Shown here piece by piece: positions 13,079 to 21,724 of a stretch of 64,000 nucleotides of DNA. The stretch is taken from assembly GCA_029262235.1 (NCBI GenBank), contig JAJCZU010000008.1:1-64000 (forward strand). Reading direction: 5' to 3'. The notes under the pieces are model-generated. The model did no database searches, was not told where the DNA came from, and saw only the letters and a program-made list of their open reading frames with translations. Within the stretch, counting starts at the first letter, position 1. Every line of letters starts with the position of its first letter. A program made the position numbers and the translations under genes. Origin of the DNA: Candidatus Eiseniibacteriota bacterium. GTDB lineage: Bacteria > Orphanbacterota > Orphanbacteria > Orphanbacterales > Orphanbacteraceae.

Positions 13079-13252
13079 GCGCCCCGGGAGACCCTCTTGC
13101 AGCCTCACTGCCTGTCCCGCACCCGCCCTCCCGCCTCCCCCGTCCGGCCGGCCGGCCAGCCCCTGCTGACAGTTCTGGCCCCCGGCCCCCGTTTTTGCTA
13201 CCCTTTTACATGCACCTGTAACCGATTTCCCAATCTCTTTCCGGAGGAATCC

Positions 13253-14449
13253 ATGAGACTCTCGACTCGCCTGATTGCGGCGGGGAGCCTTGCGGCGTTT
13301 CTGATGACGGCCATGCCCGCGCTTGCGGACGGCCCGACCTCGCTTGATGAAGCGAAGAAACTCGCCGCGGAACAAGGCAAACCCCTGCTCGTCGACTTCT
13401 ACACCGAATGGTGAGGGGCCTGTAAACGTTTCGCTCGTGCAGCGAACGAAGATCCCCGCCTCAAGAGCGCCCTCGCCCAGAACGTTGTCCTTTACAAAGT
13501 GGACGCGGAAAAAGGCGAAGGCCCCGAACTCACTAAAAATCACAACGTCTCCGGATTTCCGACGTTCGTCATGCTTACGACCGACATGCAGCCGGTCGAC
13601 CGCTGGATGGGCTACGCGGAGCCGGCCTCTTTCATCGAAACGATGAAGAGCACGGCGAAGAACCCGATTACGATCGATGCGCGCATGGCACGCTTCGAGA
13701 AAGAGCAGACGGCCGGTGACGCGGCGATCCTGGCGCGCTATGCGGGCGCAACGGGCGAAACCGACAAGGCGCTCAAGCTCTATCGCACGGCCGCGAGCCT
13801 CAGCGAAGACAAGAACGTGTACGGCTACCAGATCTTCGAACTGACTTACAAGAAGTTCCGTGAAGCCGGCGACGAAGCGGATCCGGACACGGTCATCCGC
13901 GCGGCTGACAACATGGTCGCTTCGGGCCAGGGCTCGGACATGGAGTGGGTCTACCTTGCCATGAGCATGTCGCGATTCGCGCATGGCGCCGAGAAGCCGA
14001 AGATGCAGAAGCCGTATATCGAAGCGGCTCTCGCGAAGACCGAGAAGTCGATCGACCCCGATCTCCGCAAGTACCGCGGCGATCTGCTGATCGAGCATGC
14101 TCTCGTCATCGAAGAGAATCCCGAGAAGGCAATGGCGTTCAAGCGCGGCAACCTGCCCGAGGGCTGGATGGAAGACGCCGGCGAGCTGAACTCTTTCGCC
14201 TGGTGGTGCTTCGAGAACAAGGTGAACCTGAAGGAAGCCGAGGATATGGCCCGCAAGGGTGTCGAGCTCGCGCCGGCAGGGAAAGAGAAGGCGATGATTC
14301 TCGACACGCTCGCCGAGATCTGCAACGAGCGCGGATCGTGCGAAAGCGCCGTCGAATACATCGAGATGGCGATCAAGGAAGATCCCGAGAGCGATTACTA
14401 CAAGAAACAGCTCGAGCGATTCCGCGAACTGCTCGCGGCCAAGAGCTAG
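13253..14449 (+). CDS. Predicted selenoprotein: exported thioredoxin-fold protein (W-U-G-A-C) with TPR tail
   Basis: Start ATG 13253, with GGAGG four bases before it. Reading through the in-frame TGA at 13412-13414 gives one 398-residue protein. Residues 1-25 are a Sec signal peptide (ending ALA). The thioredoxin-like domain (about 28-135) has KPLLVDFYTEW, then TGA (residue 54), G55, A56 and C57, so the TGA replaces the first Cys of the W-C-G-x-C motif. The cis-Pro loop is SGFPTFVML. The remainder is helical and TPR-like, ending AAKS. A SECIS-like hairpin follows the TGA. Both halves are in one frame and family-like across the TGA, and nearby genes stop at TGA normally, so a selenocysteine insertion is the best reading. 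A sequencing error is the alternative. Predicted role: periplasmic thiol-disulfide or peroxide chemistry. Confidence 0.8.
13412..13457 (+). promoter_or_regulatory. Candidate bacterial SECIS element
   Basis: Starts with the in-frame TGA (13412-13414). The upper stem CGTTTCGCT (13427-13435) pairs with AGCGAACG (13441-13448), with one bulged T. The loop CGTGC has G in second place, 22 bases after the TGA. An outer pair GGGG (13415-13418) with CCCC (13454-13457) closes a longer helix. Known SelB-binding hairpins have a bulged U, a small loop with an early G, and a loop about 16-37 bases from the UGA. Confidence 0.7.
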
Positions 14450-14472
14450 TTTCTGACCAATTGATGCCACGA

Positions 14473-14498
14473 GGGGCCGGCGAGCGATCGCCGGCCCC
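14473..14498 (+). terminator. Hairpin terminator after the selenoprotein gene
   Basis: Perfect 11-bp stem GGGGCCGGCGA / TCGCCGGCCCC with a GCGA tetraloop, followed by a short TTC tail. The weak T run makes the efficiency uncertain. Confidence 0.6.
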
Positions 14499-14641
14499 TT
14501 CGTCATGTGCTCCCCCGATCGCCGGCCGCTCCCGATTTTCAGCCTTGAAGAATATGTCGTGGCAACGACCTTTTTGCGTCTCTCGGGGTACAGAGAACAA
14601 GACCCGCACGCACAGGCCACCGGCACTCATTGGAGATACGA

Positions 14642-16102
14642 ATGAAAGCGATCGTTCTGGCAATCATCACGCTCACGCTGCCGCTTCTGGCGCAGGCTGA
14701 CAAAAACGACCAGCTTCTCGTATTCGTCCAGCCGGGCGAGAGCGAGCTGGCGCGGCATTTCGAAGACGAGATGCTGCCCGCAATCGAATCGATCGCCGAA
14801 TCCCTCGGTGTCACTGTTCACACGATCGACGCCCGCAACGGCACACCCGCCGACGTGCACCTGACGCCGCTTCTCGTGTTTCAGAACGAGCGCGGACGTT
14901 CGGTGTATCAGGGGCGGTACGGGGAGCTGAAGCAGGTACGCCACTTTCTGAAGACGACGCGCGCGCTCCCGCAGGACGACGCGCCGTACGACCGTGAAAA
15001 CATCGCGACCTGGACCGACGGGCGCATGCGCATCGGGAGTCCGGTGAAGGTGACGCCGCTTGCAGGCGCCGTTCCCGACGACTTCGATTCCGCCGCGTTT
15101 CGCGAAGAAGCCGCAGCCATGATCTTCGCGGGCCTCGACCGCTTCGAGCGCGCGGAAAGCGCCACGTTCGGCCCGTCCGACCGCCTCTTCTACATGGACT
15201 TCCATCCTTATCTATCAGAGAGCGGCCGACTCTACATTTCGACCGCGGTATTCTCGCAGTTCAACTGCGACTTTCCCGTTTATGAAGAGACCGAAGACCC
15301 TGTGTACGGGCAGTGGGGTGAGCGCGACGAGGTCTTTCAGAAAGCCGTGCGCGTTCTCGAAAGGCAGGTCCTGGAAGAGCGCGAGGTATCGCGCATCGGC
15401 GACGGTTTCGATATGGTGCCCGAGAATGCGCCGATCGTTTCTTACGACGAGCTCGGCTTCCCTCTGCCGGAGGCCGCTGTCGCGTCCGCCGCGTCACTGA
15501 CGAATGAGGGCGACCCGGCCGCGCGGGGATTCTCACGCAGCGACCTGCCCGAGCGGTGGACGGTGGTCGGCCCTGCAAGCGATGACGCTTCCCCGCTGCA
15601 GTTCCGGTTTCCCGCGCCGCTCGAACGCTACGCCGGCTACTCCGACTCGATCGAGGGCGAACTCGTTCTCGGCGAGGGCGAGGGCACATGGGCCGACGCA
15701 ACCGGCTGGATCACGATTCCGGCCGAGCAGATCACGATGGGGAACGCGATGCTCGACGCGGGACTTCACGGCAGCATTCTGCAGGTCTCGCAGTTTCCCG
15801 AGGCCCGCTTCGAGATGAACGAGATCAGGAGCAAGAGCGGTTCGATCGCAAGCGCCGAGGGCGTAACGCTCACCGTCACGGGCACATTCGCGATGACCGG
15901 AATCGAGTACCCGATCGAAGTGGAAGCCACGTTACTGCCCCGGCCGAACGACGGGAAACCGGCTTTCGCCGTAAGTGCTTCCTTTGACATCAGCCTCGCG
16001 GATCCGTTCGGCATCGACGGTCCCGAAGGGCCCGAGCCCGCCAATGATACGGTCCTGTTCTTCCTGAACTTCATGCTGGAGCCGGCCGACGCGCAGTCAT
16101 AG
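14642..16102 (+). CDS. Exported two-domain protein: thioredoxin-like N-part and YceI-like C-domain
   Basis: 486 residues from ATG 14642 (GGAG six bases upstream). The N-terminus MKAIVLAIITLTLPLLAQA is a signal peptide. Residues 20-115 look like a thioredoxin fold without the CxxC motif (LLVFVQPGESELARHFEDEM where the active site would be). A middle region follows. The C-terminal part (about 330-470) is YceI-like: WITIPAEQITMGNAMLDAGL, FPEARFEMNEI and TGTFAMTGIEYPIEVEATL. YceI proteins are periplasmic lipocalin-like carriers of isoprenoid lipids. The gene follows the selenoprotein by 190 bases with a hairpin between, so it may have its own promoter. Confidence 0.75.
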   Translation: MKAIVLAIITLTLPLLAQADKNDQLLVFVQPGESELARHFEDEMLPAIESIAESLGVTVHTIDARNGTPADVHLTPLLVFQNERGRSVYQGRYGELKQVRHFLKTTRALPQDDAPYDRENIATWTDGRMRIGSPVKVTPLAGAVPDDFDSAAFREEAAAMIFAGLDRFERAESATFGPSDRLFYMDFHPYLSESGRLYISTAVFSQFNCDFPVYEETEDPVYGQWGERDEVFQKAVRVLERQVLEEREVSRIGDGFDMVPENAPIVSYDELGFPLPEAAVASAASLTNEGDPAARGFSRSDLPERWTVVGPASDDASPLQFRFPAPLERYAGYSDSIEGELVLGEGEGTWADATGWITIPAEQITMGNAMLDAGLHGSILQVSQFPEARFEMNEIRSKSGSIASAEGVTLTVTGTFAMTGIEYPIEVEATLLPRPNDGKPAFAVSASFDISLADPFGIDGPEGPEPANDTVLFFLNFMLEPADAQS

Positions 16103-20677: not shown

Positions 20678-21724
20678 TCAGAACGTGTAAAGCGAATCGT
20701 CCGGAAACTGGGCGTGCCAGGCGAACCAGAGGGCGTAGCGCACGTTCGCGAGGCGCTTCGTGTCCGCGTCCCACACCGTGACCCGCGGCGGCCGCCCTTC
20801 GTACTCGAAGCGGTAGGCGCGCCCGCCGATCTCCTGGTCCCACCTGCCGTCAGGGCCTGCGGCGCGGGCGATATCGTCCAAGGGCAGGACCACGGCGCCA
20901 TCGCCTGCGGGAACGGCCACGATCGAGCTCTTGAGCGGGATCCCTTCGGGCGGGGGAAGAGGCTGCGCGGGAAAGCGCAGACGCTGCGAACCGTAATACG
21001 TGCCGTACGGCCGCTTCTTGTACATGTCGTAAAGCCCGGGGTCACGCGCGATCACCGTGGTCTCCGGATTCCAGCGCACCCAGTCGCCCCAGGTCGTGTA
21101 CGCGGCCGGAATCATCGCGAGCCTGGTCCCGGCCAGAGGGCCCGTAAGAGCTTTCCCCTGCAGCTGCGACCAGAGGCTTTCGTCCGGCACTTCCTCGCGG
21201 CGATCGAACATCAGCAGATTCGAGTCGTGCACTTTGCCCGACACACCGAACACGAGCCTTTCCGAGCCCACGTTCCGGTCGTAAATACCGACCGCGTCGG
21301 TGAGCGGGCTGTACGTCACCGCGATCGGCCGCCCGCCGAGCGTGTCGTTCACGATTTCGTGCCAGTTGAGCACGTCGATCGGATAGGCGCGCGCAGCATC
21401 GCCCACGCGAACGCCGATCACCCGGTCCCCGCCGACCAGATATTTACCGCGCCTTTTTTCGCCGAGTGCGTCGATTTCCTCGCGCGTCTGCAGAGCCGGC
21501 AGATTCATCGCCTTCAATCCGTCGCGCCCGAAGCCGGCATCGACGATTTCGTCGACAGGAACGATCGCCTGCGACAGGTCGAACGGCGGAAGCGTCCGCG
21601 ACACATTCGTGCTCTGTTCGAGAACGGGAATCAGGCGATAAAGCATCGCCGCGAGAATGACAACGAAGAGAAGAAGGAAGACAGTGCCGGCTCGCCCGAG
21701 CGAGACCTTTTTGCGGTCGGTCAT
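20678..21724 (-). CDS. DUF3179 membrane-anchored protein
   Basis: 348 residues. One N-terminal membrane anchor (AGTVFLLLFVVILAAMLYRL) precedes a periplasmic DUF3179 domain: YLVGGDRVIGVRVGDAARAY, VLNWHEIVNDTLGG and VTYSPLTDAVGIYDR. In most family members the site corresponding to SPLTDA is a Cys-containing CPLC-type motif; here there is no Cys, which is an oddity. Function is unknown for the family. The start overlaps the ctaB stop by four bases (ATGA), so the two are translationally coupled. Confidence 0.85.
   Translation of the reverse strand: MTDRKKVSLGRAGTVFLLLFVVILAAMLYRLIPVLEQSTNVSRTLPPFDLSQAIVPVDEIVDAGFGRDGLKAMNLPALQTREEIDALGEKRRGKYLVGGDRVIGVRVGDAARAYPIDVLNWHEIVNDTLGGRPIAVTYSPLTDAVGIYDRNVGSERLVFGVSGKVHDSNLLMFDRREEVPDESLWSQLQGKALTGPLAGTRLAMIPAAYTTWGDWVRWNPETTVIARDPGLYDMYKKRPYGTYYGSQRLRFPAQPLPPPEGIPLKSSIVAVPAGDGAVVLPLDDIARAAGPDGRWDQEIGGRAYRFEYEGRPPRVTVWDADTKRLANVRYALWFAWHAQFPDDSLYTF

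Follow-up and report, generated by a model that had tools for sequence, protein, structure and literature searches.

A family of predicted thioredoxin-fold selenoproteins with a TPR-like tail in Candidatus Eiseniibacteriota and other bacterial lineages

The gene at positions 13253-14449 (+) of the window, by which we mean the whole 64,000-nucleotide stretch of contig JAJCZU010000008.1 analysed here, very probably encodes an exported selenoprotein with a general role as a thiol-disulfide oxidoreductase. In the predicted product, of 398 residues including a selenocysteine at position 54 (Sec54), a signal peptide is followed by a thioredoxin domain and a TPR-like tail. That selenocysteine is inserted at residue 54 is, on the gene content of the genome and the comparative RNA evidence, close to certain. 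About 40 genomes of little-studied bacteria share the arrangement around the TGA, and we therefore take it to represent a real selenoprotein family.

The gene and its predicted product

The reading frame starts at ATG 13253, behind a Shine-Dalgarno-like GGAGG at 13243-13247 (+), and contains a single in-frame TGA at codon 54 (13412-13414, +), in the context YTEW-TGA-GACKRF. The first-pass annotation had placed this codon at the site of the first catalytic Cys of W-C-G-x-C thioredoxins and had described the frame and the fold as unbroken beyond it. Both statements are borne out: the motif reads W-TGA-G-A-C, the 344 codons downstream stay open, in the frame of the ATG, as far as the TAG at 14447-14449, and the Thioredoxin_7 model matches residues 30-108, straight across the TGA, with 59.5 bits against a cut-off of 27 when the TGA is taken as one residue. 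Downstream of the stop codon lies a GC-rich hairpin (14466-14507, +), which from its sequence and from sub-threshold Rfam matches is probably an intrinsic terminator.

By inspection, positions 13253-13327 (+) encode a predicted signal peptide (MRLSTRLIAAGSLAAFLMTAMPALA, then DG), and the AlphaFold confidence is low over residues 1-24. The N-termini of complete family members are likewise signal-peptide-like by inspection, and in the relatives L004, L006 and L013 a lipobox-like LAGC or GFAC can be seen. The AlphaFold model as a whole (pLDDT 92.2, pTM 0.83) comprises a thioredoxin domain at about residues 30-135 (13340-13657, +), with W-Sec-G-A-C and cis-Pro103, and an all-helical, TPR-like array from residue 141 to the end at residue 398 (13673-14446, +). 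The cis-Pro, supplied by the segment SGFPTF, and the TPR tail had both been anticipated. With a thioredoxin fold, a W-C/U-x-x-C motif and a cis-Pro, the protein belongs to the thioredoxin superfamily. The best match of its thioredoxin domain by sequence among solved structures is 2kuc, a putative disulphide-isomerase; PDIs and DsbD-gamma come next. The top Foldseek ranks are taken by TPR superhelices, with the thioredoxin-TPR protein YbbN/CnoX of E. coli (3qou) at rank 12 and with low TM-scores.

Invariant residues of the family alignment include W53, Cys57, P103 and Cys319. Cys57 (TGT, 13421-13423, +) is the likely resolving partner of Sec54. Cys319 (TGC, 14207-14209, +) lies in the tail, within the motif LNxFAWWCFEN, and was found in 28 of 28 aligned members as well as in the further full-length copies checked. 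At residue 54, every aligned member but one has Sec or Cys.

Evidence for selenocysteine insertion

A search for relatives in one genome per species gave 73 loci, in 21 of which a TGA is aligned with residue 54. Full-length Cys relatives (L002, L005, L008, L014, L020 and L021, and the paralogue L099) have TGC or TGT in the same column, so that the pairing of TGA with Cys for which the first-pass annotation had looked to homologues is found. Among the 7 genomes that make up the window's own phylum, the TGA form is present in 5, and 3 of these 5 also have stop-free TGC copies. In the phylum of locus L007 the family occurs in 34 of 80 genomes; 29 have exactly one internal stop, always TGA, and the other five comprise four without an internal stop and one match lacking the N-terminal part. 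After overlaps were removed by hand, about 41 genomes carry a TGA homologue, and they span lineages including Eisenbacteria, Krumholzibacteriota, Zixibacteria, Latescibacterota and Acidobacteria. Neither TAA nor TAG at the TGA site, nor any second stop, was seen in the 34 TGA-bearing matches of the window's phylum and that of L007, and the full-length Sec forms of the 21 loci likewise have one TGA only. None of these relatives has a genuine stop with unrelated sequence behind it, which would speak for termination, leaving aside L031, whose frame alone is broken among the 21 TGA loci.

Under the standard code the TGA would be a stop, and annotation would place a separate protein of 316 residues in the open reading frame that starts at GTG 13499; the gene could then be regarded as dead or truncated, a nonsense mutation having left a signal peptide and half a fold. 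However, about 40 genomes share the TGA, even where protein identity has fallen to 35-45%; the sequence on either side is conserved and there is no other stop. Because it is conserved together with the downstream protein, we consider this explanation refuted and give it hardly any weight. A sequencing or assembly error that turned TGC or TGT into TGA would fit with Cys being the alternative residue in the column, but the TGA is common to independent assemblies of many projects, including that of a relative at 85% protein identity (L001/L095), and the window's genome (4.47 Mb) is assembled in 11 contigs at 95.5% completeness; an error is the least probable of all the explanations considered.

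The first-pass annotation had also described a hairpin behind the TGA, with a bulged T and a small loop with an early G. A candidate SECIS hairpin is indeed present at 13427-13448 (+), with a conserved stem of 13430-13435 paired with 13441-13446 and a loop at 13436-13440 (CGTGC); the paired region begins about 12 nt 3' of the TGA, and the loop (CGUGC) at the 22nd nt. In each of the 20 aligned Sec forms, all six stem pairs (columns 19-24 with 30-35) are formed at a fixed distance from the TGA, around a 5-nt loop that mostly reads CGTGN and has G in second place in all 20. The bulge is possible in this gene, where 13427-13428 can pair with 13447-13448 and leave one U bulged between, but it does not hold as a conserved feature, its site being a G-C pair in 12 of 20 relatives.

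It is the comparison of relatives that shows the hairpin to be more than a chance structure. Among the 20 Sec forms, three stem pairs show changes on both sides with pairing kept; the covariation score is 0.372, a value that slid versions (0.208 at most) and all 500 shuffles fell short of. RNAalifold returned the same structure unprompted. The six Cys forms have on average 3 of the 6 pairs, versus 6 of 6 in the Sec forms (Mann-Whitney p 6e-6), and the hairpin is kept in just one of them, L005 from Zixibacteria. The combined p values from codon-preserving shuffles, 4e-4 (pairing) and 6e-10 (energy), are both too small because related sequences were treated as independent. The six-pair geometry with G at loop position 2 is found at 0.25% of random TGAs in the window. 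Taken alone, the window's hairpin is not significant in its own codon shuffle (p 0.23), and the case therefore rests on the comparison of relatives. Folding of the region, which had been proposed as a check, recovered the structure but no unusual stability of the window's copy (z -0.4). No SECIS match came from Rfam, whose hits 3' of the stop codon look like the terminator.

The genes for selenium use that had been put forward as a further check are all present in the window's genome: selA (538 bits), selB (370 bits), a tRNA-Sec gene (70.7 bits; also called by ARAGORN, with anticodon TCA, that is, UCA) and two copies of selD. At the same time, TGA is the closing stop in 14 of the 32 coding-like open reading frames of the window, and from these two observations it follows that TGA is recoded at specific sites and not reassigned. 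A genome-wide reassignment of TGA to an ordinary amino acid, without any selenium, would explain the readthrough and nothing beyond it; set against the use of TGA as a stop, the full Sec machinery and the absence of the hairpin from most Cys forms, it is as remote as a dead gene.

Across the relatives, SelA and/or SelB scored above the curated cut-off in 21 of 21 TGA-form genomes, with SelB found and SelA not found in two of them (G001 and G011), whereas three of the six Cys-form genomes had neither and three had both (Fisher p 0.007). Since those three Cys-form genomes have both selA and selB, machinery and TGA are linked in one direction only, and in the phylum of G007, where nearly all genomes have selA and selB, the contrast says little. 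The sel genes, the TGA/Cys column and the conserved hairpin together support the selenoprotein that the first-pass annotation had predicted.

The two selD genes differ from each other. One (L091, G000:C3:455857-456780) appears to be a selenoprotein gene itself, with the motif CGUAAK and its TGA at L091 position 1528; the TGA is followed by a strong hairpin with the loop region GGUCUU, which resembles the fdhF element of E. coli. The other (L092, G000:C3:267519-268475, - strand) reads CAGCGSK, has no TGA and lies within an open frame of 1018 residues, behind an apparent pyridine-nucleotide oxidoreductase domain, and is probably part of a fusion protein. When the window was scanned for further genes with an in-frame TGA, none was convincing; at the two candidate sites, 28070 (+) and 58318 (-), a gene seems simply to end, with the next start immediately after.

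Exchange of Sec and Cys, and gene neighbourhood

Placing the labels Sec, Cys and Ser on a tree of 33 proteins requires four changes, and one clade of Cys/Ser paralogues takes in a copy from the window's own genome. This copy (L099, G000:C4:1268458-1269621) is a Cys paralogue reading ADWCSACNAFD, without the hairpin. Another paralogue, L017 (3917-5113), has Ser (TCG) at the Sec position, and its genome also has a TGA form (L012). The Zixibacteria gene L005 (2570-3739) has TGC at the Sec position together with a perfect SECIS-like hairpin; its genome contains selA and selB, and the gene is nested among Sec forms, within a starred group of the tree. The simplest reading is that L005 is apparently a recent change from Sec to Cys with a leftover SECIS element. 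Genomes that hold both Sec and Cys paralogues, and L005 with its hairpin, make the family a natural test case for the mutual replacement of Sec and Cys.

A constant neighbour or conserved operon partner was not found in the loci looked at, and the neighbours vary between lineages. In the window, a kinase-TPR gene and one with a YceI domain are the neighbours; an amidohydrolase gene is a neighbour in several Krumholzibacteria-type loci (L007, L018 and L025), and a multihaem cytochrome gene adjoins the Zixibacteria member L003. The next gene downstream in the window (14642-16099, +) encodes a YceI-like domain at the C-terminus of its product, the N-terminal part of which resembles, by eye, a Cys-less thioredoxin-like fold. 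In a Holophagae genome, a second thioredoxin-TPR gene (L020 2588-3820) lies directly upstream of the Cys-form gene, the two standing in tandem with one architecture. Elsewhere in the window, a DUF3179 protein (20678-21724, -) has the motif TYSPLTD, with neither Cys nor Sec; Sec members of the DUF3179 family are listed in a 2026 review (PMC13188914).

Proposed function and relation to known families

In the mechanism that we propose, SelB with Sec-tRNA-Sec would recognise the hairpin after the UGA, and selenocysteine would be placed at residue 54 instead of termination. The mature protein would act as a thiol-disulfide oxidoreductase of the cell envelope, most likely on the reductase/isomerase side, although for the envelope reductase/isomerase role as such we see the chances as evenly balanced. 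The selenolate of Sec54 would attack a substrate disulfide and Cys57 would resolve the intermediate, leaving a Sec-Cys selenenylsulfide; the basis for this proposed chemistry is a UxxC motif in a domain that resembles DsbD-gamma and PDI. A reductant of the DsbD/CcdA type in the inner membrane could recycle the selenenylsulfide, and one DsbD_TM protein is found in the window's genome. By analogy with thioredoxin-TPR chaperedoxins, the TPR-like tail would most likely bind clients or a partner complex. It is improbable, if conceivable, that Cys319 in the WWCFEN motif of the tail serves as a second redox partner of Sec54, which would make the tail part of a catalytic relay and not only a holder of clients.

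If the protein is a selenoprotein, the chief alternative is a role like that of the chaperedoxins, in which the TPR tail would act as a holdase and Sec54 would protect or repair the thiols of clients, as opposed to general disulfide reduction. CnoX/YbbN of E. coli likewise has a thioredoxin domain followed by TPR repeats, and CnoX of Caulobacter has a CXXC motif and is an oxidoreductase (PMC8129009). Against this, the TM-score to 3qou is 0.19-0.26, with an rmsd of 21, so that the likeness does not extend to the whole protein; no CnoX-typical Pfam TPR family or CnoX-specific family was hit by the window's protein; and CnoX is cytoplasmic and carries SxxC or CxxC without Sec, whereas the present protein has a predicted Sec and is predicted to be exported. 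We regard such a role as rather unlikely. The selenoprotein might instead serve one partner, such as cytochrome c or the assembly of a metal site, with the TPR tail docking to the complex. The multihaem cytochrome gene beside L003 would agree with this, but the other loci looked at have no such neighbour and the neighbours differ between lineages, and service to a single partner is unlikely.

The 2026 inventory of prokaryotic selenoproteins comprises 119 families, including a thioredoxin with UxxC, a thiol:disulfide interchange protein with UxxC and a Trx7/PDZ protein with CxxU (PMC13188914), and no thioredoxin-TPR family is among the 119. The UxxC entries (PF00085 and PF13098; PMC13188914, Table 1) share the thioredoxin fold and have Sec first in the CxxC motif; they are thioredoxins or thiol:disulfide interchange proteins for which a TPR tail is unmentioned, unlike the present family with its 260-residue helical array and conserved LNxFAWWCFEN. 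DsbD-gamma and the selenoprotein TsoB (NF045694) are among the closest sequence and structure matches of the thioredoxin domain, but the protein has no DsbD transmembrane or N-terminal domain, and its scores lie far below the cut-offs (52.6 of 330 and 44.5 of 805). The Trx7/PDZ (seleno)protein NF041199 is likewise Thioredoxin_7-like, but has CxxU in place of UxxC; the present protein reaches 18.6 of the 300 bits required by this model and lacks a PDZ domain. In the NCBIfam scan of the window's protein no model reaches its curated cut-off, and a search for selenoproteins with tetratricopeptide repeats gave nothing relevant in the open-access literature, although an earlier description elsewhere is possible. 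As far as the open-access literature goes, the inventory and the NCBIfam scans agree with the first-pass annotation, which had not recognised the combination of thioredoxin domain, Sec and TPR tail as described; we class the family as new and apparently unlisted, while selenoproteins with a thioredoxin fold are as such a known kind.

Ordinary annotation would make two pieces of a gene of this kind, a stub and a TPR protein without its head. The bacterial selenoproteome gains a widespread and apparently unlisted family, found in phyla for which metagenomes are almost the sole source of knowledge. Should the proposed envelope role prove true, it would mean that these bacteria invest selenium in the disulfide chemistry of the envelope.
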